DNA from: an uncultured Bacteroidales bacterium
GTDB taxonomy: Bacteria; Bacteroidota; Bacteroidia; Bacteroidales; FEN-979
Assembly (NCBI GenBank): GCA_903837605.1
Contig: CAILVF010000087.1
Span: 62,001 to 126,000, forward strand
Length of the DNA stretch: 64,000 bases
Direction: 5' to 3'
Shown here: positions 1,477-59,400 of the stretch, in pieces
Numbering within the stretch: the first letter of the stretch is position 1
How the letters are laid out: each line of letters starts with the position of its first letter
Program-made: the position numbers and the translations under genes
Notes under the pieces: model-generated
Databases searched by the model: none
The model's input: only the letters and a program-made list of their open reading frames with translations
What the model was told of the DNA's origin: nothing

Positions 1477-2420
1477 TATTCAACCTCACTTTCTGCCTTT
1501 ACGGCTTTTTTGCCTTTGGCGGTTTTTTTTGGTTCTTCTATCACTTCGCCGATATGGGCCAATGCACCGTCGACAGGGACGATATGCTTGGAAAACATCA
1601 TTTTATCTTTCGGATAGCCGAAAGCCATAGCCATCAGCTGGGTGAGATAAAAGATCGGGAGATCATATCTGACTTTAAATTTCTTCTCAATATCAGGCTG
1701 TCTCATATCGAGGTTCGACTGGCAGAGCGGGCAGGCTACAACAATGGCATGGGCCCCGCTTTCTTTTGCCATTTCGAGGATCTTTCCGCTAAGCTGCAGT
1801 ACCACATCGGTATCGGAAATGGAAAAAGAAGCTCCACAGCATTCGGTCTTGAAATCGAAGGGCATTGCTTTTGCGCCTAAAGCCTCCACTATCCGGTCCA
1901 TCGACATGGGGTATTCTGGTGAATCGAACTGGGTGATGGCTTTTGGCCGGGTCAGAAGGCAGCCGTAATAGCAGGCGATCTTCATCCCGCTGATAGGACT
2001 GGTAACCTTGGTCTTGATGGCTTCAATCCCGACATCCTCATAACAGTACTGGAGCATGGATTTTACAGCTACCCTGCCCTGATACTGGCCTTCGCCTACA
2101 ACAGCGGTATTGATCTTCCTGGCCAGTTCAGGGTTCTCATCCATATGTATTTTAGTGAATTTCATGCGCTGGTAACAGGAAGCGCAGGGGACGGTCATGG
2201 TGTCATTACTGAGTTTTTCGGCAAGCACCAGGTTGCGCAAAGGCAGGGCATATGCCAGGCTTTCGTTCATGGTGTGTGCGGATGTGGCGCCGCAGCAATT
2301 CCAGTCGGGGATCTCTTCCATCTCGACATCCAGGGTCTTCATGACCATTTTAACGGTCTGGTCAAACTCCTCGCTGGTGCCGTGTGCAGAACAACCCGGG
2401 AAATAGGTTACTTTTTTCAT
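1476..2420 (-). CDS. hdrB: HdrB-like heterodisulfide reductase subunit B (CCG-domain Fe-S protein)
   Basis: A 314-residue protein when started at the ATG at 2420 (MKKVTYFPGC). A longer frame adds 24 residues that overlap hdrC and do not look like the family N-terminus. Two CCG domains are present: FPGC...NCCGA near the N-terminus and CYYGC...ECCGA...CPLC in the second half. In HdrB these cysteines bind the non-cubane [4Fe-4S] clusters that reduce the disulfide substrate. It starts 10 bases after hdrC and overlaps hdrA by one base. The C-terminal tail is Lys/Glu-rich, outside the family core. Bacteroidota do not make CoM-CoB, so the actual substrate is unknown. Confidence 0.93.
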   Translation of the reverse strand: MKKVTYFPGCSAHGTSEEFDQTVKMVMKTLDVEMEEIPDWNCCGATSAHTMNESLAYALPLRNLVLAEKLSNDTMTVPCASCYQRMKFTKIHMDENPELARKINTAVVGEGQYQGRVAVKSMLQYCYEDVGIEAIKTKVTSPISGMKIACYYGCLLTRPKAITQFDSPEYPMSMDRIVEALGAKAMPFDFKTECCGASFSISDTDVVLQLSGKILEMAKESGAHAIVVACPLCQSNLDMRQPDIEKKFKVRYDLPIFYLTQLMAMAFGYPKDKMMFSKHIVPVDGALAHIGEVIEEPKKTAKGKKAVKAESEVE

Positions 2421-2430
2421 CTTTAACTTC

Positions 2431-3003
2431 TTATTTGCTCTGTTGTTCAAGTTTATCGGCCATTTCGTACATTTTCTTAATGGCTTTTGCACTTTTCATT
2501 GATTTCACTCCCAAAGGAATTTTTCCTTTCAGCAGGGCCTTGGGGGCAAGGTGCATATCCTTGAAAAGATTTCGCGTACGGATATTGAATTCGGCCATCA
2601 TGCGCAGCTCATAATTCCTGCCGTATCGCCTGATCATATCCAGGAAGATCTCGTGGAATTTCCTGATGTTCTTTACCTGTTTTGAATCCGGATGGAAATT
2701 CTCCTCAATAGCCATGTGCCGCACAGCTTCCATGACTGCAGGGATATTGATCTCCCTCGGGCAGCGGCCGGAACAGGCAGAACAGGTAAGGCAGAACCAG
2801 GTGGAGTTAGCCATCTGGCATTCTTCCTTAAGTTCCAGCTTGATCATCTGCATGATCTCCCTGGGTGGAAAATCCATGAAATTTGAGACCGGGCAGGTCG
2901 ACACGCATTTGCCGCACTGGTAACATTCCAGGACGTCTGAGCCGCTCTTTTCATTCACGGCTTCCAGGAAGGTGTTTTTCCCTTTGTATGAGAGTGTTAT
3001 CAT
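2431..3003 (-). CDS. hdrC: HdrC-like heterodisulfide reductase subunit C (2x[4Fe-4S])
   Basis: A 190-residue cytosolic Fe-S protein with two ferredoxin-type clusters: CYQCGKCVSTCP around residues 27-38 and CLTCSACSGRCP around residues 71-82. This is the normal HdrC layout, and the protein relays electrons from HdrA to HdrB. It is the first gene of hdrCBA. A -7 box and a palindromic operator lie 14-42 bases upstream (3017-3045), so redox control of the whole operon is likely. Confidence 0.92.
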   Translation of the reverse strand: MITLSYKGKNTFLEAVNEKSGSDVLECYQCGKCVSTCPVSNFMDFPPREIMQMIKLELKEECQMANSTWFCLTCSACSGRCPREINIPAVMEAVRHMAIEENFHPDSKQVKNIRKFHEIFLDMIRRYGRNYELRMMAEFNIRTRNLFKDMHLAPKALLKGKIPLGVKSMKSAKAIKKMYEMADKLEQQSK

Positions 3004-3016
3004 ATAAAAACCTCGT

Positions 3017-3045
3017 GCTGTTAAAATATTAACAGCCCAAAGTTA
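3017..3045 (-). promoter_or_regulatory. hdrCBA promoter with Rex-like operator
   Basis: Reading the minus strand, a Bacteroidota -7 box TAACTTTG (3045-3038) is followed two bases later, after GG, by a perfect palindrome with 8-base arms, GCTGTTAA-N4-TTAACAGC (3036-3017), ending 14 bases before the hdrC ATG. The core TGTTAA-N4-TTAACA has the Rex operator architecture, with one arm base differing from TTGTTAA. A CRP/FNR-family factor is the alternative. No clear -33 TTTG is seen. Confidence 0.6.
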
Positions 3046-11020: not shown

Positions 11021-11052
11021 TGCATCCCGACATCTCGTTATCCCGCTATCTT
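11021..11052. repeat. Octad repeat overlapping the nuoN stop codon
   Basis: Four degenerate units of period 8 on the plus strand (TGCATCCC, GACATCTC, GTTATCCC, GCTATCTT), with the pattern ATCYCG recurring. The nuoN stop codon (11053-11051) touches the last unit. Confidence 0.55.
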
Positions 11053-12460
11053 AATATAGTCCGAAACTCAGTCCGTTGATCATCTCGAACACCGCGCTGA
11101 AGATACCGATTGCAAATATACCCGCCAGGCAGAGAATCAGGCCAAGGCTTGAATAGAAATCGCTTTTGATCTTAGGTATCGGCCTGTCGCTGCGGTTCAG
11201 GAACATTGCCTTGATGACCAGTAAATAATAGTATAATGATATGATCGTGTTGATAATTGCTATCAGGACCAGTATATACAAGCCGTGATTGGCGGCGGCG
11301 GCGAAAAGGAAGAACTTGCCAAAGAAGCCAGCTACCGGGGGGATCCCAGCCAGTGAAAAGAGTGACAGCATCATCACCATGGCCAGCCTGGGGTTAGTCC
11401 TGTATAAACCATCGTAATCATTGATCGTTTCGAATCCCGTACGGTTCGAAATGATGGCGACAACACCGAAGGCGCCAAGATTTGAGAAGATATAGACAAG
11501 TACAAAATAGATCACGGTGGCCATACCGTATTGGCTCTGCCCTATAATTCCAAGCAGGATGAAACCGGCCTGTGCGATTGACGAAAACGCCAGGAACCGT
11601 TTAAGGTTTTGCTGGCGGATGGCAAAGAGGTTACCCAGCGTGATGGTCAGAATAATTATAATGTACAGCATATTGCTCCACATCAGAGCAATCTTGCTGA
11701 ATACGGTAAATAAAAGAATTGTTAAAATAAATGCAGCTGCTCCTTTGGAAACAACCGACAGGTATGAGGTAATATTTACTGGCGCTCCTTCGTAAACATC
11801 GGCAGTCCATAAATGGAACGGAACCAGGGAGATTTTAAATGCCATGCCTGCAAAGAAGAAGATAAATCCCAGGACCTGCAGAGGGGTGCCGGTGAATGCC
11901 GGTCCCACTTCAGCGAAATATAAGGTGCCTGTGGTTCCATAGACCATCGACAATCCGTAAAGAAGAATGCCTGAGGAAAGGGCTGATGAGAAAATGAGTT
12001 TCACGCCTGCTTCAGCTGATTTCTCCTTGAAACGTTCGAAAGCGGCAAGCGCGGCCAGGGGAATTGTCGCAAGTTCCAGTCCGAGGTAGAACATCAGGAA
12101 ATCGCCGGAGGAGATCATATACTGCATCCCGATAAGAGTGGAAAGCATAAGGATGTAATATTCGCTGATCTTTTCCTTGTTCTCGGGTTTCCTGAGCCAG
12201 TCGGCGCTCTGTATCATAACGATCAGCGCCCCGATATTCAGGATATTCTTAAGCATCAGTGTCAGAGCCGTGGTCTGGTACATCCCGCCGAACAATATCC
12301 CTGTAGGCCCCGGAATAAAACCAAGGATCAGAACAGCCGTCATCAGGAGGATGGCTGCTGTAATGACATTATGCTTTTTATCAGCGGGAAGGAAAATCTC
12401 AACAAGCAAAAGAATCACCGTGATGGCAATCAGCAGTAATTCGTGTCTCATGATCAACAT
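11051..12460 (-). CDS. nuoN: NADH-quinone oxidoreductase-type subunit N
   Basis: 469 residues, about 14 membrane helices. It belongs to the antiporter-like (Mrp/NuoN) family, with YEGAPVNITSYLSVVSKGAAAFIL and NLKRFLAFSSIAQAGFILLGI carrying the proton-channel Lys residues and the helix-breaking motifs. It is one of three distal proton-pumping subunits of complex I. It is last in the nuo operon, 36 bases after nuoM. ATGs at 12460 and 12451 are both possible. Confidence 0.95.
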   Translation of the reverse strand: MLIMRHELLLIAITVILLLVEIFLPADKKHNVITAAILLMTAVLILGFIPGPTGILFGGMYQTTALTLMLKNILNIGALIVMIQSADWLRKPENKEKISEYYILMLSTLIGMQYMISSGDFLMFYLGLELATIPLAALAAFERFKEKSAEAGVKLIFSSALSSGILLYGLSMVYGTTGTLYFAEVGPAFTGTPLQVLGFIFFFAGMAFKISLVPFHLWTADVYEGAPVNITSYLSVVSKGAAAFILTILLFTVFSKIALMWSNMLYIIIILTITLGNLFAIRQQNLKRFLAFSSIAQAGFILLGIIGQSQYGMATVIYFVLVYIFSNLGAFGVVAIISNRTGFETINDYDGLYRTNPRLAMVMMLSLFSLAGIPPVAGFFGKFFLFAAAANHGLYILVLIAIINTIISLYYYLLVIKAMFLNRSDRPIPKIKSDFYSSLGLILCLAGIFAIGIFSAVFEMINGLSFGLY

Positions 12461-12496
12461 GGGTCAGATATTTATTTGTTTCTTACTTTTTTCGAT

Positions 12497-14008
12497 TTAA
12501 TGAAGAATGGGACCTGCCAGTAATATTCTCTGCATGACCGGTACCAGTCCGTTATTGATCATATCGCTCAGCCAGAGTGGCGCCATCCCGATAGCCGTAA
12601 TCCCCAGGATGAGGGTCACTACGCTCATACGGTCAAACCATTTTGCATCAATAATATGATTGAATTCAGGGTTTTTTATTTTACCCAAAAGCAGGATTCC
12701 TACCACACGCAGAATATAAACGGCGGTAACAACAATTGAAGAAGCTGCGATGATGGTACATACCCTGTGGAATACATCATTATGCTGGAATGAACCCACG
12801 AAGATTGTCATTTCTGCGACGAATCCACTGAATCCGGGAAGGCCGAGCGAAGCGAGGCCGCCGATCACATATGCAACACCGAGAAACGGCATGACTTTCA
12901 TCAGTCCGCCCATTTCGTTGATAAGCCTGGTGTGAGTACGCCCGTAAATCATGCCGATCAATGCAAAGAAAAGGGCTGTCATGATACCGTGGGAGATCAT
13001 CTGCATAATGGCCCCGTTCATTGCAGTCTGGTTCATCATCAGTACCGCGAAAAGGACGAGGGCACAATGGCTCACAGAGGAATATGCGTTGATATATTTA
13101 AGGTCTTTCTGCCAGATAGCGCCGAATGCGCCGTAAATCACGCCGATAGTCGTAAGGATCAGGAATATCCAGGCCATTTCATGTGCTGCTCCCGGAAGAA
13201 GGAATACGGCAACGCGATAGCAACCGTACCCCCCGAGCTTCATCAGAACGCCTGCATGAAGCATTGATACGGCAGTAGGTGCCGAAGCGTGACCATCGGG
13301 CGACCATGTGTGGAAAGGGAAAAGAGCTCCAAGAACCCCGAATCCTATGAAGAGAAATGGGAAAAAGAAGCGTTGTGCAGGCATCGGAATAGCCACTTTG
13401 GATATCTGGATCAGGTTAAATGTAAGAGGACCTCCACCGGGGGCAGAATTAAAATACAGGCCCAGTAAGCCCAGCATGATCAAAGCCGAACCGCCCATCA
13501 GCATCAGGGTTAGCTTCATTGCCGAATAATGCCGCGGGCCGCTCCCCCAGATACCAATTAGCAAATACATCGGGATCACTGCAATTTCATAGAACAGGAA
13601 TAGGGTGAAGAGGTCAAGAGAGATAAAAAAGCCGAATACACCGGCAGCAAGAAGGATAAGAGAAGTAAAAAATTCCCTGGGCAGATCCGTGACATCCCAG
13701 GAAGCAAAGATCCCTGCAAAGATCACTATCGAAGTCAGGCCTATCATAGCGACCGAAACCCCATCCACACCTATAAAGAAATGTATATTCAGGTTCTTGT
13801 ACCAGACCATATCCTGGGAGAAAAGTATTTCGGCAGTATTCCCTGCAGCCCTTGCAGCCAGGAAAAGATAAATGAGAAACCCGGCCAGGATCAGCTGACA
13901 GCTCATACCGACAACAGCGGTCCATTTGACCTGCATATGGGTCTTGCTGAAAAATATCCCAATGACAGTGAGGACAGGGATTACGATGAACAATAACAGA
14001 AAGCTCAT
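12497..14008 (-). CDS. nuoM: NADH-quinone oxidoreductase-type subunit M
   Basis: 503 residues, polytopic. NuoM signatures are clear: FLFYEIAVIPMYLLIGIWG with the essential membrane Glu, FPFHTWSPDGHASAPTAVSMLHAGVLMKLGGYG, and QKDLKYINAYSSVSHCALVLF. It is an antiporter-like proton-translocating subunit of the membrane arm. It starts 12 bases after nuoL. Confidence 0.97.
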   Translation of the reverse strand: MSFLLLFIVIPVLTVIGIFFSKTHMQVKWTAVVGMSCQLILAGFLIYLFLAARAAGNTAEILFSQDMVWYKNLNIHFFIGVDGVSVAMIGLTSIVIFAGIFASWDVTDLPREFFTSLILLAAGVFGFFISLDLFTLFLFYEIAVIPMYLLIGIWGSGPRHYSAMKLTLMLMGGSALIMLGLLGLYFNSAPGGGPLTFNLIQISKVAIPMPAQRFFFPFLFIGFGVLGALFPFHTWSPDGHASAPTAVSMLHAGVLMKLGGYGCYRVAVFLLPGAAHEMAWIFLILTTIGVIYGAFGAIWQKDLKYINAYSSVSHCALVLFAVLMMNQTAMNGAIMQMISHGIMTALFFALIGMIYGRTHTRLINEMGGLMKVMPFLGVAYVIGGLASLGLPGFSGFVAEMTIFVGSFQHNDVFHRVCTIIAASSIVVTAVYILRVVGILLLGKIKNPEFNHIIDAKWFDRMSVVTLILGITAIGMAPLWLSDMINNGLVPVMQRILLAGPILH

Positions 14009-14020
14009 TATCTTATCGTT

Positions 14021-15940
14021 TTAATTGGTCCATAAATAAATGAATAACAAAGCAAGGGCAATAACCCCCGAAATGAAAGCAAGGGCATACTGCTGGAGCT
14101 GCCCGCTCTGGAATCCCTTGATCCTGTCGGAAACCACATTGGTGACATAGGCAAACTGGTTCATGGTCCCGTCGACAATATGGCGGTCGAACCATGCAAC
14201 CGGGCGGGATACATAGTTGAATAATATTTTTTTTGTGATGAAAAGATACACTTCATCAATATAAAACTTGCTGTAAGCGGCTGTATAAAACCCGCCGAGA
14301 GCAGTTGCAATTTTTTTCGAGGTGTCGGAACTTTTCATATACAGCATGGTGGCAATCCCGATCCCTATTAGTGCAATAAAAATTGATGGGATTGCAATGC
14401 CCCATTCGGTATGGGCCTCGAACGGCATGCTGTCGGATGTTACAAGTTTGGTAAAAGGAATAAAACCTGCAAATGTTGAACCGATAGCCAAAACGATCAG
14501 CGGCAAGGTCATGGTCACCGGGGCTTCGTGCGGTGTATGATGATAATGCTGGTCTTTCCCCCAGAACACATTGAAATAAAGACGGAACATATAAAAGGCT
14601 GTCATGCCTGCAACCAGGTACTCCATGGCAAACAAGGCTTTGTTATGATGGAAAGCCGCAACGAGGATCTCATCCTTGCTGAAAAAACCTGCAAACGGCG
14701 GTATACCGGAAATGGCCAGGCATGCGATAAGGAAGGTCGCATGCGTTATGGGCAGGTATTTCCTCAGCCCTCCCATCTCGTTCATATAATTCGAATGGAC
14801 AGCATGGATTATGGCGCCGGCCCCGAGGAAAAGCAAGGCTTTGAAGAAAGCATGTGTGAACAGGTGGAACATCGAAGCCATATAACCCAGGCCTTCTTCA
14901 CCACCATATCCTGAAACACCAAGCGCAAGCATCATATAGCCGATCTGCGACATGGTGGAATAGGCAAGGACACGCTTGATATCATACTGGGTGCAGGCTA
15001 TCACAGCTGCAAATAATGATGTAAACCCTCCTACCCAGGCCACAATCTCAAGGGCCGATTGTTCATGATGGAAGATCGGGAACATACGTGCGACAAGATA
15101 AACACCTGCAACAACCATGGTTGCCGCATGGATAAGGGCCGAAACAGGAGTCGGGCCTTCCATGGCATCAGGCAGCCAGATATGCAAGGGGAACATGGCC
15201 GATTTACCGGCGCCGCCCATAAAAATAAAGAGCATAGCCCAGGTCATGGTCGACATGCCCAGGAACATGATACCCTGCCCCGATGTGAAAGCCGGGCTGT
15301 TCGGGCCTGTCAGTGTGATGAAATCAAAAGTGCCTGTGGTATAGGAAAGTACCAATATGCCGATGAGAAAGCCAAGGTCGGCAAAGCGGGTTACTATGAA
15401 AGCTTTTTTGCTTGCAGCGACCGCCGAATCTTTTTCATAGTAAAATCCTATCAGCAGAAATGAAGAGACCCCGACGAGCTCCCAGAAAATATACATCTGG
15501 AAAATGTTGGTTGCGATAACAAGGCCAAGCATCGAAAAGCTGAACAGGGAAAGAATTGAGAAGAAACGAGCAAATCCCTTTTCCCCTTTCATATATCCTA
15601 AGGAATAAATATGCACCATGAACGATACGGTAGTGATAACGATCAGCATCATCACCGAAATGGGGTCAAGCAGAACGCCTATGTCGATATGTAGCTTATC
15701 GGTGAGGTGAAGCCAGGTGTAACTGATCCCGATCACTTTCTGAAAAGCGCCGCCAACCTTGTCAAGTACGAAAAAATATTTGTAGGCTGTAAATAATGCA
15801 AGGCAAAAATTGATACCGAGTCCGGTGGTACCAATAATTCCCGTCACTATCGGTTTAAACCTGTTGCCGGTAAGCCCGGTGATCACAAATACCAGCAGGG
15901 GTATCAGCAGTATCCAGATGGTGTAACTGAAATCGATCAT
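14021..15940 (-). CDS. nuoL: NADH-quinone oxidoreductase-type subunit L
   Basis: 639 residues, normal length for NuoL, including the long C-terminal lateral helix region. Motifs include FWELVGVSSFLLIGFYY, FPLHIWLPDAMEGPTPVSALIHAATMVVAGVYLV and YDIKRVLAYSTMSQIGYMMLALG. It is the most distal proton-pumping subunit. It is separated from nuoK by 78 bases that contain a perfect four-unit heptad repeat, the widest gap but one in the operon. Confidence 0.97.
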   Translation of the reverse strand: MIDFSYTIWILLIPLLVFVITGLTGNRFKPIVTGIIGTTGLGINFCLALFTAYKYFFVLDKVGGAFQKVIGISYTWLHLTDKLHIDIGVLLDPISVMMLIVITTVSFMVHIYSLGYMKGEKGFARFFSILSLFSFSMLGLVIATNIFQMYIFWELVGVSSFLLIGFYYEKDSAVAASKKAFIVTRFADLGFLIGILVLSYTTGTFDFITLTGPNSPAFTSGQGIMFLGMSTMTWAMLFIFMGGAGKSAMFPLHIWLPDAMEGPTPVSALIHAATMVVAGVYLVARMFPIFHHEQSALEIVAWVGGFTSLFAAVIACTQYDIKRVLAYSTMSQIGYMMLALGVSGYGGEEGLGYMASMFHLFTHAFFKALLFLGAGAIIHAVHSNYMNEMGGLRKYLPITHATFLIACLAISGIPPFAGFFSKDEILVAAFHHNKALFAMEYLVAGMTAFYMFRLYFNVFWGKDQHYHHTPHEAPVTMTLPLIVLAIGSTFAGFIPFTKLVTSDSMPFEAHTEWGIAIPSIFIALIGIGIATMLYMKSSDTSKKIATALGGFYTAAYSKFYIDEVYLFITKKILFNYVSRPVAWFDRHIVDGTMNQFAYVTNVVSDRIKGFQSGQLQQYALAFISGVIALALLFIYLWTN

Positions 15941-15976
15941 ATGTTGGTTATATTATGCGTTAGTCATTTTTACAAA

Positions 15977-16004
15977 GCCATGGGCCATGAGCCATGAGCC
16001 ATGA
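15977..16004. repeat. Heptad tandem repeat (GCCATGA) between nuoK and nuoL
   Basis: Four consecutive 7-base units, GCCATGG followed by three exact GCCATGA. On the transcribed strand the array reads TCATGGC, placing an ATG in each unit and therefore in every reading frame. It starts 14 bases after the nuoK stop. Confidence 0.85.
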
Positions 16005-16018
16005 TTTTTCCCTTAGGG

Positions 16019-16336
16019 CTAATACTTCATTTCATTCATCTTCTCCACATCAATATTTACCAAACGGCGGTATATGTTGATGATAATTGCTATTGCTACG
16101 GAAGCTTCAGCGGCGGCAACGGCAATGATGAAGAGTGTAAAAAACATCCCCTCCAGGTGCCCGGGGAAGAGGATTTTGTTAAAGGCCACGAAATTGATAC
16201 AAACCGAATTCAGTATGAGTTCGATCGACATCAGCATGGTGATCAGGTTTTTCCTTACCAGGAAACCGTAAATCCCGATAAAAAACATTGTCGTGGACAA
16301 CACAAGGAACCAGTGAATAGGAACGCCTTCAAACAT
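16019..16336 (-). CDS. nuoK: NADH-quinone oxidoreductase-type subunit K
   Basis: 105 residues, three membrane helices, with the conserved SIELILNSVCINFVAF (functional Glu in helix 2) and VAAAEASVAIAIIINIYR (functional Glu in helix 3). Proton-translocating subunit of complex I. It follows nuoJ by 17 bases. Confidence 0.97.
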   Translation of the reverse strand: MFEGVPIHWFLVLSTTMFFIGIYGFLVRKNLITMLMSIELILNSVCINFVAFNKILFPGHLEGMFFTLFIIAVAAAEASVAIAIIINIYRRLVNIDVEKMNEMKY

Positions 16337-16353
16337 AGCGGAATATTTTTAAA

Positions 16354-16866
16354 TTAATCTTTTCTTTTCTTTGCCAGTATAATAGAGCCGATCATGGCTG
16401 CCAGCAGCAGCACGCTGATGACTTCGAAAGGCAGGGCATAACCGTATTTACCGGTACTTAGCATGCCCTCGCCTATAGTCCTGATATTAGTTCTTGCAGG
16501 GTCAAAGTTTTTTTGTATAAACTGGGTCTGCAAAATAGTGAGTATGCACAAAATAGCGCCAGCAACGGCAGCAACAGCGGCATATATCCTCTTTGTAACC
16601 GGCGGGATAGCCAGCTTTTCGCTGATATGGCTGGTCAGCAGAACTGAGAAGATGATCAGGACCACGATTCCTCCTGCATACAAGGTGAGCTGGATCGCTG
16701 CAAGGAAGTTAAACCCGAGCAGGAAATACAGTCCCGATGTGGAGACCAGGACGAAAAGCAGGAACGTAGCGGCCCGGAGGATGCGGCGGCTGGTCACTGT
16801 CAGCAGTGAAAAAACTACGATCACTACCGAAAATAGCAAAAACATAAATTGATTGTTCGTCATCAC
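16354..16866 (-). CDS. nuoJ: NADH-quinone oxidoreductase-type subunit J
   Basis: 170 residues with five membrane helices. The conserved FLLGFNFLAAIQLTLYAGGIVVLIIFSVLL region carries the NuoJ pi-bulge helix TM3. It overlaps nuoI by 4 bases (ATGA type), consistent with coupled translation of the membrane arm. Confidence 0.95.
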   Translation of the reverse strand: MMTNNQFMFLLFSVVIVVFSLLTVTSRRILRAATFLLFVLVSTSGLYFLLGFNFLAAIQLTLYAGGIVVLIIFSVLLTSHISEKLAIPPVTKRIYAAVAAVAGAILCILTILQTQFIQKNFDPARTNIRTIGEGMLSTGKYGYALPFEVISVLLLAAMIGSIILAKKRKD

Positions 16867-17342
16867 TCTACACCTTTAATAATGGATGAACCGGGTTGAT
16901 TTAACACTTTTGTCAGTTTGGAACGGTCGAAAACCGCATGTTCAAACTCCTGTCCGAAACCAAGGGCATTTGAAGGGCAATTCTTTACGCATAATCCGCA
17001 GAAAGTGCACATTCCAAGATGATAGATGTGCTTGTCGATGATACGTTTCGGTTTGCCGTCTTCGCCTGTAACCTTTACCGGGATGACCTCGATTGAACCG
17101 TTCGGGCAGTTATTTTCGCAAATACCGCAGCCATTGCAGCGATGCTGGTTGTTCCCGTCGTGAAGCATGATGACCTCACCCTTGAACCGTTCGAACATTT
17201 GCAGGTTTTTCCTGTTTTCAGGATATTGCTGCGTTACTATCTGCCCGGGGCTGAAGAAATACCGGCCTGTGACCGACATCCCGATAAGCAGGGATTTCAC
17301 CCCGTGGAAAATATCTGAAAAATACTTAAAGAAGCTGTTCAT
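16863..17342 (-). CDS. nuoI: NADH-quinone oxidoreductase-type subunit I (2x[4Fe-4S])
   Basis: 159 residues with two ferredoxin motifs, CNGCGICENNCPNGSIEV about residues 69-86 and CTFCGLCVKNCPSNAL about residues 112-127. They bind clusters N6a and N6b, which connect the electron-input end to NuoB. Because nuoEFG are missing from the operon, NuoI is the natural docking point for an alternative donor such as ferredoxin. It starts six bases after nuoH ends. Confidence 0.97.
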   Translation of the reverse strand: MNSFFKYFSDIFHGVKSLLIGMSVTGRYFFSPGQIVTQQYPENRKNLQMFERFKGEVIMLHDGNNQHRCNGCGICENNCPNGSIEVIPVKVTGEDGKPKRIIDKHIYHLGMCTFCGLCVKNCPSNALGFGQEFEHAVFDRSKLTKVLNQPGSSIIKGVE

Positions 17343-17348
17343 AGTATG

Positions 17349-18437
17349 CTAAAAATGCCAATGCATTAATACTAAAAATGCCATAAATAGAATGTTGACC
17401 AGGTTAATCGGAAGCAGATATTTCCACTCCAGAGTCAGCAGCTGGTCGATACGAAGACGCGGGAAGGTCCACTTGAACAACATCATCAGCCAGATGATAA
17501 AAGCGGTTTTACCGATATACCATACAAAAGGCGGGATGTAATCCATTATAGTGTTGAACCCAGCCCATCCTGAAACATGAAAAGGCATCCAGCCGCCCCA
17601 GAATACAGTTGCTGCGATTGAGGCGACGAGGAACATATTCATATATTCAGCCAGGAAGAAAAATGCAAACTTGATCCCTGAATATTCGGTATGGAAGCCT
17701 GCAGTAAGCTCCGATTCGGCTTCAGCAAGGTCGAAAGGCCCTCGGTTTGTTTCGGCCGTGCTGGCGACCAGGAACACTATAAAGGCTATAATTGCCGGGA
17801 TATGTCCTTTGAATATGAACCAGCCGTTTCTTTGCATTTCAACAATCTCCGAGAACTGCATAGTGCCTGCAAGAACGATGATGGTTAGCAGTGAAAGGCC
17901 CACCGAAAGCTCGTAACTGACAATCTGTGCGCCGCTTCTCATGGCGCCGATCAGCGAATATTTATTGTTGGACGACCATCCTGCAAGCAGTATACCCACG
18001 ACTCCAAGGGAGGAAACAGCGATCACGTAAAGTATTCCGATATCTAAATCAATGGCATGCAGGCCTTTCGCAAACGGTACGGCCGAAAGGGCCATGAAAG
18101 AGGCGATGATCACGATAAAAGGGGCAAGGTTGAACAACAGTTTATCGGAATCTTTGATATATACCAGCTCTTTCATCAGCAGTTTGATAAAGTCGGCAAT
18201 AGTCTGGAAGATGCCGTAAGGCCCCACCCGGTTCGGCCCGACACGGTTCTGCATGAAAGCACAAACCTTTCGTTCGGCATATACCAGGAAAAGACCGACA
18301 ACTGCATAGAAAAGCAGGAAGACTATCCCGATGATAGCCATCTCGGTAATCATCGCCCAGGTAGGCGGCATGATGCTGTTCAGCCCCTCGTCGATCCACC
18401 TGTTAAATGATGTAAAATCGTAAATATTAAAGGTCAT
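17349..18437 (-). CDS. nuoH: NADH-quinone oxidoreductase-type subunit H
   Basis: 362 residues, about eight membrane helices. NuoH signatures: FLVYAERKVCAFMQNRVGPNRVGPYGIFQTIADFIKLLMKE and ASTAETNRGPFDLAEAESELTAGFHTEYSG, the acidic loop that lines the quinone chamber. It joins the peripheral arm to the membrane arm. It follows nuoD directly, the place where nuoE, nuoF and nuoG would be in a 14-gene operon. Confidence 0.97.
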   Translation of the reverse strand: MTFNIYDFTSFNRWIDEGLNSIMPPTWAMITEMAIIGIVFLLFYAVVGLFLVYAERKVCAFMQNRVGPNRVGPYGIFQTIADFIKLLMKELVYIKDSDKLLFNLAPFIVIIASFMALSAVPFAKGLHAIDLDIGILYVIAVSSLGVVGILLAGWSSNNKYSLIGAMRSGAQIVSYELSVGLSLLTIIVLAGTMQFSEIVEMQRNGWFIFKGHIPAIIAFIVFLVASTAETNRGPFDLAEAESELTAGFHTEYSGIKFAFFFLAEYMNMFLVASIAATVFWGGWMPFHVSGWAGFNTIMDYIPPFVWYIGKTAFIIWLMMLFKWTFPRLRIDQLLTLEWKYLLPINLVNILFMAFLVLMHWHF

Positions 18438-18449
18438 ACTACCTTGTTT

Positions 18450-19577
18450 TTATCTGTCAATATCAGGAATTACTAAGTCAAGGGATGCGCCGATGGCAAC
18501 CAGGTCGGCAATTTTCATACCGCGGCTGATATGGTCAAGTACGCTGAGGTTGGAAAAGCTCGGGGTGCGGAATTTCATCCTGTAGGGGGTCTTGTTACCG
18601 TCGCTCACAACGTAAAGCCCGAGCTCACCCCTTGCCGACTCAACCCTCTGAAAATATTCACCAGCAGGCAGTTTAATCACCGCCTTCATTTTGGCTGAAT
18701 GATCCCCTTCGGGAATGTTGTCGATGAGCTGTTCAATGATGTTCATCGACTCATGCATTTCCTGCATCCTGACCATGTACCGTGAATAGGTATCGCATTC
18801 GTAACGCAGAACCTCATTGAACTGCACCTGGCCATACATGCTGTATGGCTCCGTTTTGCGAACATCACATGACCAGCCAGAGCCTCTTCCCGAAGGGCCT
18901 GTGACCCCGTAACTGATGGCGTCTTCTTTTGAAAGAACACCCACTCCCTGGCTGCGATTCTCGAAAATCACATTGCCTGAAAGGATACGGTCGTAATCCT
19001 TTATTTTTTTCTTGAAAGTTTTAAGGAAAGCATGCACTTTCTTCTGGAAATTCGGATGTATGTCCTGCATCACGCCACCGGGACAGTTGTAACTTTGAAG
19101 AAACCTGCTCCCTGTTGTTTCTTCCCAAATGTCAAGGATCATTTCACGGTCACGGAGGCCATAAAAGAAACAAGTAAGTCCTCCGAGGTCCATCCCAAAA
19201 CTTGACCACCAGAGCTGGTGCGATTGTATCCTGGCCAGTTCATCCATGATGGTACGGATATACTTTACACGCTCGGGCACTTCAACTTCCAGGGCTTTCT
19301 CAACAAGAAGGCAAACAGCATGATTGTTGATGTGAGCCGAAAGGTAATCTATCCTGTCGGTAAGGTGGATGACCTGGGGATAAGTGTCTTTTTCACACAT
19401 CTTCTCAATGCCGCGATGAATATAGCCGCAATGCGGTTTCAGGCTTTTGACAATTTCGCCCTGGAGGGAAACAAGCAGCCGCAGAACCCCGTGAGTGGAG
19501 GGATGCTGTGGCCCCATGTTGATATGGTATTCCTCCTCCTCTATATTGCTGACCGGCAGGTTTATTATCTCTTTCAT
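18450..19577 (-). CDS. nuoD: NADH-quinone oxidoreductase-type subunit D
   Basis: 375 residues, related to hydrogenase large subunits but without the Ni cysteines. Motifs: MGPQHPSTHGVLRLL (quinone-site His), HRGIEKMCE, and ESARGELGLYVVSDGNKTPYRMKFRTPSFSNLSVL near the C-terminus. It lines the quinone-reduction site together with NuoB. It is a separate gene from nuoC, unlike the fused nuoCD of enterobacteria, and starts 3 bases after the nuoC stop. Confidence 0.97.
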   Translation of the reverse strand: MKEIINLPVSNIEEEEYHINMGPQHPSTHGVLRLLVSLQGEIVKSLKPHCGYIHRGIEKMCEKDTYPQVIHLTDRIDYLSAHINNHAVCLLVEKALEVEVPERVKYIRTIMDELARIQSHQLWWSSFGMDLGGLTCFFYGLRDREMILDIWEETTGSRFLQSYNCPGGVMQDIHPNFQKKVHAFLKTFKKKIKDYDRILSGNVIFENRSQGVGVLSKEDAISYGVTGPSGRGSGWSCDVRKTEPYSMYGQVQFNEVLRYECDTYSRYMVRMQEMHESMNIIEQLIDNIPEGDHSAKMKAVIKLPAGEYFQRVESARGELGLYVVSDGNKTPYRMKFRTPSFSNLSVLDHISRGMKIADLVAIGASLDLVIPDIDR

Positions 19578-19580
19578 AGA

Positions 19581-20039
19581 CTAAAATTCAACGATGTTTA
19601 CTTCATCAATATAATCCTTACGGAGGGGGTAACCTTTCCAGTCTTCTTCCAGGAAGATCCGGCGCAGGTCGGGATGGTTGTTGAACCTTATACCGAACAT
19701 GTCGTAAGTTTCACGCTCATGAAATTCGGCGGTACGCCAGACATCGCAAACCGTGTCGAAGTTCGGATTTACCCGGTCGTCGGTCTTAACCTTGATGACC
19801 AAAGCATGCTTGTGCTGTGTGGATCTCAGGTGGTAAACCACCGCCAGCTGCTTGATGTAGTCAACCCCGCTGAGGCAGAACAGGAAATCGAAGGCGAGAT
19901 CCGGGCTGTTTTTAAGTTTAATGGCCAGATCATGAAGCCTGGCTGCAGGCAGAAGCAGCGTCAGGAACTGCTTGTTTTCCTCCTGCTGTGCGTCAGGCGC
20001 AATCTCAAGGATCCTGGCTTTTAAGGTTTCGTTATCCAT
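19581..20039 (-). CDS. nuoC: NADH-quinone oxidoreductase-type subunit C
   Basis: 152 residues when started at the ATG at 20039 (MDNETLKARI); a TTG three codons upstream is less likely. The NuoC family core is visible as HERETYDMFGIRFNNHPDLRRIFLEEDWKGYPLRKDY. It is a structural subunit of the connecting module. The C-terminus ends at the end of the family motif with the short tail IDEVNIVEF. Confidence 0.96.
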   Translation of the reverse strand: MDNETLKARILEIAPDAQQEENKQFLTLLLPAARLHDLAIKLKNSPDLAFDFLFCLSGVDYIKQLAVVYHLRSTQHKHALVIKVKTDDRVNPNFDTVCDVWRTAEFHERETYDMFGIRFNNHPDLRRIFLEEDWKGYPLRKDYIDEVNIVEF

Positions 20040-20040
20040 A

Positions 20041-20070
20041 AATATCAAATGATGATATAGTGAGATAGTG
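20041..20070. repeat. Weak octad repeat after the nuoB stop
   Basis: Two period-8 units, GATATAGT (20054-20061) and GAGATAGT (20062-20069), with degenerate flanks. It fills the 33 bases between nuoB and nuoC. It is short enough that chance cannot be excluded. Confidence 0.4.
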
Positions 20071-20072
20071 GG

Positions 20073-20615
20073 TTATTGTTTTCCTAAGATCATGGTTTGC
20101 TCGGGACGCGTGATGGTTTCCAGTTTGATTTTTCTCTGGAGCTGCATGATCCCGTAAAGCAGTGCTTCCGGACGGGGAGGACAACCCGGGATATACACAT
20201 CAACAGGGATGACATGATCCACACCCCTTACGACATGGTAGGAATTATAATAAAATGGTCCGCCGGAAACTGCGCATGCACCCATGGCTATAACATACCT
20301 GGGCTCCGACATCTGGTCGTAGAGGCGTTTGAGGACCGGGGCCATCTTGTTCACGATGGTACCTGCAACAACGATAACGTCAGCCTGGCGCGGACTGGCA
20401 CGGTAAACTTCAATGCCGAAACGGGCAAAGTCATGCCGGGATGCACCCGTAGCCATCATTTCGATGCCGCAACAACTGGTTGCAAAAGTGAGAGGCCAGA
20501 CTGAATTGGATCGCCCCCAGTCAATGACGGCATCAATTGATGTCATCAATACATTTCCGCCTGTCCTTTTGAACAAATCAAGGGTTTCGTTATCACGGAA
20601 ATCCTTTTCCTTCAT
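20073..20615 (-). CDS. nuoB: NADH-quinone oxidoreductase-type subunit B
   Basis: 180 residues from the ATG at 20615, five bases after the nuoA stop; ATGs at 20630 and 20651 in the same frame overlap nuoA. It has the N2-cluster ligands: adjacent cysteines in [13 protein letters not shown], then [19 protein letters not shown] and [17 protein letters not shown]. The cluster gives electrons to quinone. Confidence 0.97.
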
Positions 20616-20620
20616 GCTTT

Positions 20621-20971
20621 TTATTCCCATTTCAAAGCTCCTTTCTTCCATGCATAAAGTAGTCCGATACCTAAAACGAAAAAGAAAATTACAATTTCGA
20701 TAAAGGCTTTCATCCCAAGGGATTTCATCATTATGGCCCAGGGAAAAATAAAGACGGTTTCCACATCGAATACCAGAAAAATGATTGCAAAAAGATAATA
20801 CCCGACATTAAACTGCAGCCAGGTAATTCCTTCAGTGGGAATCCCGCACTCGTAAGCTTCTGCTTTCTGAGGGTTGGTTGATGTAGGTGGGACTAAACTC
20901 GAAAATAGCAGGGCTATACCAACTAAAAATGCCCCGACTATGAAAAATAGAATCAGGCTTTCAGCACTCAT
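20621..20971 (-). CDS. nuoA: NADH-quinone oxidoreductase-type subunit A
   Basis: 116 residues, three membrane helices, with [13 protein letters not shown] in the loop that locks the quinone chamber (conserved Cys) and [22 protein letters not shown] in the second helix. It is the first gene of the operon nuoABCDHIJKLMN. A -7 box and Rex-like palindrome lie directly upstream. Confidence 0.97.
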
Positions 20972-20973
20972 AA

Positions 20974-21007
20974 TGTTAACTTGTTAACAGATCTGGGCGC
21001 AAAATTA
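20974..21007 (-). promoter_or_regulatory. nuo operon promoter with Rex-like operator
   Basis: On the minus strand, the -7 box TAATTTTG (21007-21000) is followed ten bases later by TGTTAA-N4-TTAACA (20989-20974). The palindrome ends two bases before the nuoA ATG (20971). The core is the same as at hdrC and nrfH. It can also be read as two overlapping GTTAAC palindromes, so the spacing of the true site is uncertain. Confidence 0.55.
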
Positions 21008-54187: not shown

Positions 54188-55669
54188 TCAATCCTTTTCG
54201 TTTTCTGGTTTAACCCATTTGTTTTCTCTTTCTTTCGCTTGCTGCTCCCAAACAGGAATAACAGTTTTGATAAATTCCTGCTTCTCCCTGTATAAAGCAT
54301 CCATCTGCAAACCTATGAATTTTTGAGCTTTCTCTTTTGTTGCAATATCGGGATACGATATCTCAGAGTTTTTGCCGTATTTATATAGTATCCGGGTCAG
54401 CTCTATCCTGGCCTCCTTGGCTTCATTGATAGCCAGGCCGGTGATCCTGGAAACTTCAACGGGTGAATGGAATGAAGCTCCGTGGCTTGCGGCAGAATAA
54501 TCCCAGTACCATTGTGCGTTCCTTATATGCTTCAAACCGGCCTCCATTTCCTTATCATTGGCACCTGCATCCCAGGCAGCTTTTGCCTCAACATGGGCCT
54601 TGACGAGTTCAACCTCAGCCATGTCCCTGATCTGTTTTACCTTGTCCTGCCGTTCATATACATTATCCCTCAGGGTTTTTTCGCTTTCCCTGTGGCATAC
54701 CTGGCAGGTATTCGAAATATTTGCCAGCGGACTGGTGATCTTATGGCTTGTGAATTTCTGCCCGCCTTCCTTGATATACGGCATATGGCAGTCGGCACAA
54801 GCCACTCCCCGTTCAGCATGGATCCCTGTGAGATAGATCTCGTAATCGGGATGCTGGGCCTTTAGCATGGGGGCCCTGCTGAGCTGGTGGGTGAAATCCG
54901 AAAAACCGGTTTCATTATAATACTTCAGGGCCGAATCGGCAGAGGTTCCGTATTTCCACGGGAAAGTCAGGTATGCCATATCAGGTGCATCGGTCCTGTG
55001 CTTATCGAAATAATATTCAACATGGCATTGCGCACAAACCAAAGACCGCATCTCCTGGTGCGTTGCCTTGCTGATGTCTTTGCCCATAGCTTTAAACGCT
55101 TCGATCAAAGCCGGCCTCGTTATCCTCAGGTCCATGGTCCCGGGATCGTGGCAATCGGCACAACCTATATAATTGGCAATCTCGTTTCCTTTGGACGCCC
55201 ACTTCCCTTTGTAAAAATCCTTTGGCCCCGTCTTTTCCATTAATCGCGGCACATCCGGACTCTTGCAGGTCCAGCAGGTAGCCGGCTGGGGTCCGTCATC
55301 CGGCCCTTTAGGGGCGCCTGTCCTCAGGGTATTCCTGATGTCGGTGATGGCATAATAGTGACCCCGGCCCTGGCTGTAATCCTTTGAAAAAGCATAACCG
55401 GCCCAAAGCACGACCATACGGGGATCCCTGGCAAGCATGTCGATGAACACACTGCCATTGTATTTGCTGGTAAAACCTGTATCGGCCGTTTGAATATAGC
55501 TCTGGTATTCCCGGGGGAAATTTTCTCCCCAAAGTGAATTTCTTGGTTCGTACTCGTCAAGTTTAACTTTTGGTTTATACACGTATTCCGTTTCGGCCTT
55601 GCGCTGGGTAATGGAAGAAGCCAGCAGGCCGAGTAAAAATACAATGAGCATGGTGGCAAAAAACAGCAA
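54188..55669 (-). CDS. nrfA: Ammonia-forming cytochrome c nitrite reductase NrfA (N-terminus probably frame-disrupted)
   Basis: Frame from a TTG at 55669 gives 493 residues. Pentaheme signature: CWTCK (Lys-ligated active-site heme), CADCH, CAQCH, CADCH and CQVCH, in the order of NrfA. It reduces nitrite to ammonium with six electrons in the periplasm. The N-terminal membrane segment (FFATMLIVFLLGLLASSI) begins right at this start, and no ATG precedes it in frame. An ATG at 55757, one base past the nrfH stop, is in another frame. Removing one A from the six-A run at 55735-55740 (T on plus) would join it to give MPSADRKRNKQIVQSIWKLF. See finding. Confidence 0.93.
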   Translation of the reverse strand: MLFFATMLIVFLLGLLASSITQRKAETEYVYKPKVKLDEYEPRNSLWGENFPREYQSYIQTADTGFTSKYNGSVFIDMLARDPRMVVLWAGYAFSKDYSQGRGHYYAITDIRNTLRTGAPKGPDDGPQPATCWTCKSPDVPRLMEKTGPKDFYKGKWASKGNEIANYIGCADCHDPGTMDLRITRPALIEAFKAMGKDISKATHQEMRSLVCAQCHVEYYFDKHRTDAPDMAYLTFPWKYGTSADSALKYYNETGFSDFTHQLSRAPMLKAQHPDYEIYLTGIHAERGVACADCHMPYIKEGGQKFTSHKITSPLANISNTCQVCHRESEKTLRDNVYERQDKVKQIRDMAEVELVKAHVEAKAAWDAGANDKEMEAGLKHIRNAQWYWDYSAASHGASFHSPVEVSRITGLAINEAKEARIELTRILYKYGKNSEISYPDIATKEKAQKFIGLQMDALYREKQEFIKTVIPVWEQQAKERENKWVKPENEKD

Positions 55670-55758: not shown

Positions 55759-56346
55759 CTACCTCTTTTCTTCCTCTTCGTCTTCATCCCTTTCGGTTCG
55801 GCTTTTGATCTTTGTTTTTACCAGGGCATTTGGGGTTGAAGAAAGGCCGTTAACCCGTTTGTGCGGGGTTTCCCTGTGGCAATCCAGGCATGTCCTGTCT
55901 TTAAGGTAATTATGAAAATTCGGCTGTACCGAATATATGAATCCGGTTCCCACAGTTTTTTCATGGCAGCGGATGCAATTTGCCTGCACCGCCTTCCGCC
56001 CGGCTTCCCTGATGTAGATCACCTGGGGTTCGGTCCTCAATGTGAAAATAGTGGCGTGCCGCAACCCGTCTTCCGCCTTGAAAAGGTATTTTTCAAATAC
56101 ATTGCCATGAGGCACATGGCAATCATTGCATGTTGCTGTATTCCGGTGGGAACTGTGAGCCCAGTCATAGAACTGGGGATTCATCACATGGCAGTTGATA
56201 CAGGTTTCAGGATTGTCGCCCAGGTAGGATGGGGCTTTCGATATATAGATCGCATACGCTGCCAGTCCGAAGAAAATCCCGAGTAATATGATCACCGGTT
56301 TCATCCAGTTTTCGGGTGGAAGAAATTTTTGAACAAATTGTTTCAT
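55759..56346 (-). CDS. nrfH: NrfH, tetraheme cytochrome c quinol dehydrogenase
   Basis: 195 residues. An N-terminal membrane anchor (KPVIILLGIFFGLAAYAIYIS) is followed by four c-type heme motifs CINCH, CNDCH, CIRCH and CLDCH. This is the NapC/NirT/NrfH family: it takes electrons from menaquinol and passes them to NrfA. The C-terminal tail is charged (EDEEEEKR) and ends next to nrfA. It is first in the operon, with an operator-like palindrome upstream. Confidence 0.95.
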   Translation of the reverse strand: MKQFVQKFLPPENWMKPVIILLGIFFGLAAYAIYISKAPSYLGDNPETCINCHVMNPQFYDWAHSSHRNTATCNDCHVPHGNVFEKYLFKAEDGLRHATIFTLRTEPQVIYIREAGRKAVQANCIRCHEKTVGTGFIYSVQPNFHNYLKDRTCLDCHRETPHKRVNGLSSTPNALVKTKIKSRTERDEDEEEEKR

Positions 56347-56365: not shown

Positions 56366-56388
56366 TTGTTAATCAGTTAACAAAGCTA
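56366..56388 (-). promoter_or_regulatory. nrfHA promoter overlapped by a perfect Rex-like operator
   Basis: On the minus strand, -7 box TAGCTTTG (56388-56381) overlaps a perfect palindrome TTGTTAA-N4-TTAACAA (56366-56383; spacer TCAG on the plus strand). The site ends 19 bases before the nrfH ATG. The arms match the TTGTTAA form of the Rex consensus exactly. Overlap with the -7 box fits repression by polymerase exclusion. Confidence 0.65.
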
Positions 56389-56410
56389 ATCAGATCCCGG
56401 GGATTTTCCA

Positions 56411-56448
56411 AAAAAAAGAGGCTGTCCCCAAAATTACGGGACAGCCTC
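56411..56448 (-). terminator. Intrinsic terminator of the giant secreted protein gene
   Basis: Arms GAGGCTGTCCC (56418-56428) and GGGACAGCCTC (56438-56448) pair perfectly around a 9-base loop. On the minus strand a run of eight T residues follows (plus-strand A run 56410-56417). It starts 20 bases after the stop at 56469 and insulates nrfHA from the upstream gene. Confidence 0.9.
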
Positions 56449-56468: not shown

Positions 56469-59400
56469 TTAATGTTTCAAAATGAGTTTCTGGGTCACTT
56501 CCTGGTCATCGGTAATGATCTTTACAACATAAGATCCTTCAGGAGCGGAAGACAGGTCAAAATTCAGATCCGGTTTTTCCCAGCAAACTTTTTTCAGTAC
56601 GGTTCTTCCGCTGATATCCATGATGGATACCGTCATTGAACTGTACTTCATTGAGCCTGCGTCAATACGGAATGTTCCCTTTGACGGATTCGGGATGATG
56701 CGGAAGATATCCGCTGTATGTTCATTGACCGAAACAGTCGATTGGGCCTGGGTAACTGTAACCGATTGTGGTGTAAGTCCGGCTACCGTAACCGTGGCAG
56801 TAGCAACTCTGGCAACATGGTATGGATTCTCCAGGTAGGCGGCATTTATGGTGCCGTTGCCTGTTCCCGAAGGGGTAACAGTAAGCCATGCCGAGTCACT
56901 GACAACAGTCCATGCAGCATTGGAAGCAACCGTGAAAGTTGTATTCCCTGCGGTGTAAACCACATTCCGGTTAGGAGGAGTTACCAGGAGGGTCGGAATA
57001 ATACCGGCCTGTGTAACGGTTACTGTGATTGGTGAAAGACCTGATACAGTTACGGTTATTGTAGCAACCCGGTCGGAAGAAGCATCGTTTACAGTATAAT
57101 TTGCAACGATGGCGGCATTTCCGGTTCCTGTTGGGTCAACAGTACACCAGGGCTGGTCTGAAACTACAGTCCATGTGGTGTTTGAAGTGACGTTGAAATT
57201 GGTATAACCTGCAGGGGATGACGGAACGTTCTGGTTAGGCGGTGTAACTACAAGTGTAGGTACAGCTGCATCCTGGGTCACGGTCACTGTCACCGGTGTT
57301 ACAACCCCGGTTCCTGTAACGGTTATAATGGCAACGCGGCCTACAAGGGATGTGTTCTCGGCATAAGATGCGGTCAGTGTTCCGCTTCCGGTGCCGGAAG
57401 GAGTCACTGTACACCAGGTTGAATTACTGGATGCGGCCCATGCGGTATTGGCGTTAACTGAAAAATCAACAGTACCAGAAGGAGTAAAAGCTACGTTCTG
57501 GTTAGCCGGGACTACCGATAAAGTTGCGGCACCTGCAGCCTGGGTCACGGTAACAGTAATCGGAGACAAGCCGGTAACTGTCACGGTAATGTTTGCAACC
57601 CTGCTTGAGGTGTTTGGATTTACTGCATATACTGCAGATATTGTTCCGTTTCCGCTTCCCGAAGCCGTGGGTACGCACCATGTCTGATCGGAAACAACAG
57701 TCCAGGTTGTATTGGAAGTCACTGTGAATGCTGCTGTTCCTGCAGGAGTAGCAGGTACGTTCTGATTAGCGGGTGTTACTAAAAGGGTAGGGGCAATTCC
57801 TGTCTGGGTTACAGTTACTGTTGAGGTAGGTGCGCCGGAACCTGTTACTGTAATTGTGGCAACCCTGCTTCCAACTCCGGCAAATGCAGTATATGTAGCA
57901 GTTATTGTTCCGTTATTGCTCCCGGAAGGTGTTACTGTACACCAGCTCTGGTTACTCGATGCATTCCATGTTGTATTTGAGGTCACCGTAAACGGGGTTG
58001 TGCCTGCTGCTGATGCAACATTCTGATTAGGGGGGGTTACAGCAAGCGTACTTGAAGTGGTTCCGGTAACAGAAATGTTATCAATTCCCCACCACCATCC
58101 CCAGGAACCTGAATAATTCCATTTGAACTGGACAGAAGACTGGTTTGCAGCGCCTGTAATAACATTGCTGTATGCCACGGGGTTGGTTGCTGATGTTGTG
58201 TTGTAGGTATTAAGAACGGTCCAGGTAGAGCCCCCGTTGATACTGTAAGACAAAGTCCCTGTTTCAGCAGAATATTCTCTGAAATAATGACTGAACGCAA
58301 GGGTTATATTTGTATATCCGGAACAATTTAAAACCGGGGTTACGAGATCGGCATTCTGAACACCTCCGCTGGCATAACCGTCGCTGTTAAGGTATGCATA
58401 GTTCCCGGTAAGGTTAGGCGCATTGGTACTGCTGATAGTGCCAAACTGCCATACCTGTGAGTTCCCCTGGTGGTCAACCTGTGACCAGCAGCCTGGAATA
58501 CTCGTGCCATTGAAATTTTCGGTGAACGGCAGGGAATAAATACCGCACAAGGTTGTAAAGGTAAGATCGTCACCGTAAAAGGTTCCGGCACTGTTCGTTG
58601 CATAGGCCCTTACATGGTACAGAGTGCTTGATGTCAAACCCGTAATGGAACTTGAAAATGTTCCGAGTCCTGCGCCGTCGGTCGTGTGACTGCCTGCTGT
58701 TGTAGGATTGGCTGTTATGCTCCAGCAAACTCCCCGCGCCGTCACTGATGAACCGCCGTCGGCCACTACGTTGCCTCCGCTGGTTGCGGAAGTGAGTCCG
58801 ATGGCTGAAGCAGCTGTAGTAGTAACAACGGCTGCACCAGGAGTTACCATCATATCGTTGCCATTTGTCGTACCTTCAATATTCACACCAACAAGGCGGA
58901 AATGATAGGTGGTACCTGGTGTAAGTCCCGATATCGGGGCATTTACGGCAACATTTGATGTTCCTGAACCTGCGTTGGCAGTGGTTGTATTATTGCCATA
59001 TCCTGTAGTAGTTCCCCATTCGAAATGATAGTCTGAACTGTAACCGTTGGGGTTGATCAATCCGTTTAATGTAGCGGAGGTCGTGGTGATTGCAGTAGCT
59101 GCCGTTGTTGTAATGGCCGGGTTATTGCTGAATTTAAAGGATGCAATACGTGTTTGCCATGGCCAGGCAGTTTCATTCCAGGTTAAAATATATTCATTGG
59201 TATACCAGAATGTAATATCATCTGAAGGATCAACCGTCATCCCTGAATAATCTCCCCATCGTCCATAGGAGGAGTTCGTTTGGGAGGCAGCTCCGTTGAC
59301 CACGGTTTGTTCGGGGATAGTCATCAGGCCCGGTGTGTCTGAGGCACGGCGACCGGTATAACGCACTGACGGGTATACCGAAACAGCATCAGAAGCTGTA

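Follow-up and report, generated by a model that had tools for sequence, protein, structure and literature searches.

Nitrite ammonification retains nitrogen in the ecosystem, and the signal that induces nrfHA in environmental Bacteroidota is poorly known. The locus examined here, part of a 64,000-nucleotide stretch of DNA from an uncultured Bacteroidales bacterium (hereafter the window), poses this question in a specific form. An 18-base palindrome lies 19 nt upstream of the nrfH start codon, and one must ask which factor would bind it and to what that factor would respond. The palindrome is very likely an operator bound by the Rex protein that the genome itself encodes, which would repress nrfHA in its NAD+-bound form and release it upon binding NADH. 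If so, the operator predicts that internal NADH, and not nitrite, is the signal for nrfHA.

The palindrome and the nrfHA promoter

The first-pass annotation had described a palindrome, exact on both arms, that overlaps the only good -7 box before nrfH. Both the exact arms and the overlap are borne out (Table 1), and a pattern search found no other match with 0 mismatches either in the window or in the 4.15-Mb genome. The nrfH -33/-7 pair fits the TTTG / TAnnTTTG consensus of Bacteroidetes promoters (PMC7366714), and the overlap between operator and -7 element is also kept in orthologues from the same genus. The earlier choice of promoter was right because a second TAnnTTTG lies within the loop formed by the upstream terminator hairpin, but the chosen box is not the only match to this consensus. 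That hairpin is predicted to fold with -30.2 kcal/mol (z -4.0). The terminator closes the upstream gene, whose secreted product of 1430 aa combines several BACON domains with a Por secretion tail at the C terminus. The T tract of this terminator supplies the -33-like TTTG of nrfH. A comparable arrangement of hairpin and T tract is visible in three sister genomes.

Table 1. Features of the window that bear on the nrfHA, hdrC and nuoA promoters
Feature	Position	Strand	Sequence	Remarks
Rex-type operator, nrfH	56366..56383	.	TTGTTAATCAGTTAACAA	perfect palindrome TTGTTAA-N4-TTAACAA
-7 element, nrfH	56381..56388	-	TAGCTTTG	Bacteroidetes TAnnTTTG type; 3-bp overlap with operator
-33-like element, nrfH	56409..56412	-	TTTG	20 nt from -7 box; putative role
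Intrinsic-terminator hairpin	56418..56448	-	GAGGCTGTCCC / GGGGACAGCCTC	followed by T tract; ends upstream BACON gene
Second TAnnTTTG	56429-56436			within terminator loop
nrfH, cytochrome c nitrite reductase small subunit	55759..56346	-		NCBIfam TIGR03153, 163 bits (cut-off 134)
nrfA, ammonia-forming cytochrome c nitrite reductase	54188..55669	-		NF008339, 649 bits (cut-off 595); Pfam Cytochrom_C552, 586 bits
BACON/Por-secretion-tail gene	56469-60761			neighbour of nrfHA
Rex-type operator, hdrC	3018..3035	.	CTGTTAAAATATTAACAG	2 mismatches; ATG 14 nt on
-7 box, hdrC	3038-3045		TAACTTTG	operator follows directly
hdrC-like Fe-S protein gene	2431..3003	-		Pfam Fer4_8
hdrB-like CCG protein gene	1476-2438			Pfam CCG; next after hdrC
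Rex-type operator, nuoA	20973..20990	.	ATGTTAACTTGTTAACAG	2 mismatches; ends 1 nt before ATG
-7 box, nuoA	21000-21007		TAATTTTG	operator lies downstream
nuoABCDHIJKLMN, 11-subunit complex I cluster	11051..20971	-		Pfam; no NuoEFG between nuoD and nuoH

Motif enrichment and the Rex regulator

Within the window alone, the motif is only slightly above chance (9 matches with up to 3 mismatches, versus a mean of 4.65 in shuffled sequences), and thus the strength of the case comes from conservation rather than from this count. The whole genome carries 15 sites with at most 1 mismatch, versus 2 for a reversed-pattern control, and the excess is diluted when 2 mismatches are allowed (59 versus 38). A Markov model built on the intergenic DNA of the window, only 3.5 kb in all, predicts about 0.1 perfect sites and 1.3 sites with at most 1 mismatch in 600 kb of intergenic-like sequence, versus the 1 and 15 found. 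All 15 sites are intergenic, two of them (L012 and L013) once over-long open reading frame calls are replaced by orthologous starts. Matches with at most 1 mismatch are thus not randomly placed, and sister genomes carry them in front of orthologous genes of redox metabolism and fermentation. Across the family, an excess of the palindrome is present in 43/43 genomes, with a summed count of 432 versus 91 for the reversed-pattern controls.

The distinct sites share a 7-4-7 palindrome. Every half-site keeps G3 and A6 (92/92); position 5 varies between T and G (75/17), and position 1 is unconstrained. These features define the consensus TTGTKAA-N4-TTMACAA (the K/M pattern), of which the nrfH operator is a perfect copy. 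The K/M pattern is found 27 times in the window's genome versus 6 times when reversed, and it shows no excess (528 versus 680 reversed) in 93 Bacteroidota genomes without detected Rex, drawn from an even sample of the phylum. Enrichment of the motif thus co-occurs with rex, as judged from the enriched family genomes versus the unenriched Rex-less Bacteroidota. A distant Rex (31-36% identity) is encoded in five further Bacteroidota genomes, which likewise show no motif enrichment, and so these proteins may recognize a different sequence or have only a few sites.

The genome encodes one clear Rex of 213 aa (L001:1015-1656), which is recognized by its N-terminal winged-helix domain (PF06971, 52.7 bits, cut-off 27), by the NCBIfam family profile (NF003995, 201 bits, cut-off 126) and by a PDB sequence search that matched Rex chains (2vt2, E 8e-35). 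Rex is present in 40/43 genomes of the family and in 125/197 genomes sampled in the order. An ungapped alignment with Rex from the T. maritima Rex-NAD-DNA complex (PMC8836258) shows that this protein retains roughly half of the residues that contact DNA, most of those that contact NAD, and the switch pair Tyr100/Asp191. Identical residues include R12, S33, Q46, R48, G58 and Y64 among the DNA contacts, and N92, A96, Y100, D115, K120 and D191 among those for NAD and switching. The two proteins differ by E34H, K43T, K49R, S52M, R60L, G61R, I93L, F108L, I190Y, I192M and T200A, the last three of which are switch positions and count against assignment of the site to Rex. The T. maritima structure has Arg48 and Lys49 reading Gua5 and Ade8 (PMC8836258), which correspond to G3 and A6 of the operator. 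The base-contacting Lys49 is Arg here, as it is in the aligned Rex proteins of B. subtilis and S. agalactiae.

A gene for a fusion of response regulator and histidine kinase (L001:1647-2780) has a 10-bp overlap with rex, and the two are probably cotranscribed. A palindrome with 2-3 mismatches (for example, ATGTGATTTTATTAACAT) is located at the start codon of the kinase-rex pair in G034 and in the genus of the window, and not elsewhere. Autoregulation of rex is common but not universal, and this degenerate site might possibly serve that purpose.

Distribution of the nrfHA operator and alternative readings

An operator with at most 2 mismatches is found in 10/18 nrfH promoters of the family, spread over several genera, although two of these (G008 and G014) have only the weaker TTGAGAAACTATTCCCAA. 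Outside the family but within the same order, the count falls to 1/28 promoters even though Rex is common in the order, and a general order-wide link between nrfHA and Rex was rejected for this reason. Chance would yield 0.4 operators in all 46 promoters. The 8/18 family promoters that are devoid of the site belong to genomes that still carry Rex. The nrfHA operator therefore looks like a lineage-specific element that has been gained and lost under a conserved regulator.

From the conserved Rex residues and the promoter geometry, we infer derepression by NADH. Rex-NAD+ would block transcription by occupying the -7 element of nrfHA together with its start region. As NADH rises, Rex would bind it and leave the operator, and nrfHA would be expressed, sending electrons to nitrite and forming ammonium as an electron sink. 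The nrfHA site would be one of a set that, in this family, is positioned on redox, hydrogenase, propionate- or butyrate-type and ammonium-handling genes.

Rex might instead occupy the site to little effect or as a secondary control, with nrfHA driven chiefly by a sensor of nitrite or nitrate. This alternative overlaps with the preferred explanation because Rex is the binder in both. It draws on the nrfHA orthologues outside the family that do without the operator, and on Desulfovibrio, where nrfHA is under the control of NrfS-NrfR (PMC5701242). The operator nevertheless overlaps the -7 box and has been preserved in several genera, and a merely secondary role seems unlikely.

Still less probable is control by a CRP/FNR-family regulator, either HcpR-like or a Bacteroidales CRP, that would act on nrfHA via NO, cAMP or redox state. 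Such a factor must be considered because TTGTTAA-N4-TTAACAA can also be read as TGTTA-N6-TAACA, which shares its geometry with the CRP-type site TGTGA-N6-TCACA. The genome encodes four CRP/FNR-like proteins, one of which (L021) has a CRP-like SRE...R recognition helix. Furthermore, Rex and HcpR1 of Desulfovibrio are said to share sites (PMC5701242), and a site might be shared in the same way here. Against this stands the lack of motif excess in Bacteroidota without detected Rex, a comparison made on Rex content. The mapped sites also lie over or next to the -7 element, not at the activator positions -41/-61, the half-site mostly has T rather than G at position 5, and the genes targeted agree with a role in NADH balance. 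When CRP/FNR alternatives were scored, no conserved FNR, CRP or HcpR2 box fit the nrfHA promoters better. Boxes of the HcpR2 (GTAACnnnnGTTAC), FNR and TTGAC types are 2-5 mismatches off in nearly all nrfH promoters of the family, and neither GTAAC-N4-GTTAC nor TTGAT-N4-ATCAA is conserved at these promoters, with best matches at 2-5 mismatches nearly throughout. HcpR2 and FNR boxes were rejected as nrfHA control sites on these grounds.

The sole exact HcpR2-type box among the nrfH promoters of the family (GTAACCAAAGTTAC) occurs in one genome (L036), 87 nt before nrfH and beside an intact Rex-type operator. This gene might be under double control.

A chance palindrome in promoter DNA is scarcely credible: intergenic DNA is AT-rich, and the TTG of one arm belongs to TAGCTTTG, so that part of the palindrome is fixed by the promoter, but conservation extends to the far arm TTAACAA (in the 8 clear nrfH cases, the arms carry 1.77 bits versus 0.89 for N4 and 0.48 for the following flank), perfect sites are expected as rarely as estimated above, every family genome is enriched, and this phylogenetic footprint led to rejection of chance as the origin of the site.

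Predicted targets and relation to known systems

The first-pass annotation had also noted the same core at hdrC and nuoA and had proposed a redox regulon on this basis. Both sites are real and conserved across the family, and the regulon gains support from conserved sites before other redox and fermentation orthologues. Relative to the K/M consensus, the hdrC palindrome has at most 2 mismatches in 30/30 family promoters, and the nuoA palindrome has at most 2 in 25/30 and at most 3 in 28/30. In these promoters the arms carry 1.6-1.8 bits and N4 carries 0.5-0.9 bits, and spacer and flanks drift. Without NuoEFG, the complex I cluster has no NADH-oxidizing module of its own there, and nonetheless its promoter has a conserved Rex-type operator.

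In G000 and sister genomes, the same orthologues are preceded by sites with at most 1 mismatch, and the distance to the gene is almost constant. The targets of these sites are genes for an ammonium transporter (Amt), nrfH, a NuoE/HydC-like protein, methylmalonyl-CoA epimerase, a crotonase, an acyl-CoA ligase and biotin carboxylase. Four sister genomes carry a perfect site 4-5 nt before the start of a gene for an HdrA-like protein. Some targets have 2-mismatch sites in G000 and 1-mismatch sites elsewhere, including an [FeFe]-hydrogenase-like protein and GdhA (in a sister genome), and a PAS histidine kinase and an mmdA-like / PycB-like pair (in sister genomes). Overall, sites are conserved across species before orthologous genes of NADH balance. 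One-mismatch sites are also located before genes with no obvious redox role, encoding MgsA/RarA, a TonB receptor and an amylase.

Promoters with a recognizable TAnnTTTG mostly have this box 5-16 bp ahead of the operator (nrfH, epimerase, gdhA, pycB), or directly behind it at amt and the NuoE-like gene, which places the operator in the -33/-7 region. Most promoters surveyed have no TAnnTTTG match near the site, and therefore the geometry rests on a subset. For that subset, the mapped operators are inside or abutting the predicted core promoter, which are positions suited to a repressor.

Several individual promoters deserve mention. The amt operator stands directly before TAnnTTTG in 5/6 genus genomes examined (L015:1501-1518, L109:1992-2009, L115, L128 and L139). 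The start codon of the PAS-domain histidine kinase gene, which is divergent from that for apolipoprotein N-acyltransferase, follows a Rex-type palindrome by 1-2 nt in three genus genomes (L126, L140 and L159). A conserved one-mismatch palindrome, with extra TTTTAACAT-like repeats, separates the gene for an MgsA/RarA ATPase from a small gene (L010, L105 and L119).

The presence of Rex-type operators at nrfHA, amt and the gene for glutamate dehydrogenase raises the prospect, which we consider tentative, that Rex couples nitrite ammonification to the capture and assimilation of ammonium. If this is true, a high NADH level would induce the reduction and the assimilation of nitrogen together, as a single electron sink, and the hydrogenase, Hdr and the NuoEFG-less complex I would respond alongside nrfHA, amt and gdhA. 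The predicted co-regulated genes form a short list that could be read in metatranscriptomes.

Rex regulons, the TTGTTAA-type motif and binding of Rex near nitrite and nitrate genes in S. aureus (PMC2883068) are already known. No Rex regulon for Bacteroidales was found described in the open-licence papers searched, and thus the motif and target list given here are available for testing. Two reports give the general Rex half-site as TTGTGAA and the clostridial one as TTGTTAA (PMC5317091, PMC8457756), and the sites described here, with G or T at position 5, agree with both. HcpR/HcpR2 and FNR-type systems (PMC1274295) likewise control nitrogen-oxide metabolism, and the HcpR1 site has a CRP-type geometry like that of Rex, but the HcpR2 motif is not what the nrfHA promoters conserve.

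The closest parallel is the clostridial Rex regulon, studied for C. thermocellum Rex_2471 by DAP-seq and EMSA (PMC8457756). It shares with the predicted system an identical consensus, TTGTTAA-N4-TTAACAA, the same regulator family, and fermentation, hydrogenase and central carbon targets. In contrast, the host here belongs to the Bacteroidota and uses TAnnTTTG promoters, and the predicted targets include nrfHA, the NuoEFG-less complex I, Hdr-like genes, Amt and GdhA. The canonical Rex regulons of S. aureus, T. maritima and others (TTGTGAA-N4-TTCACAA) have the same 7-4-7 architecture, fixed G3 and A6 and repressor placement, whereas position 5 here is mostly T and not G. Among the loci bound by Rex in S. 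aureus are nirC, nirR and narG (PMC2883068). Unlike NirC/NirR in that organism, the predicted nitrite target in this Bacteroidales lineage is the periplasmic NrfHA.
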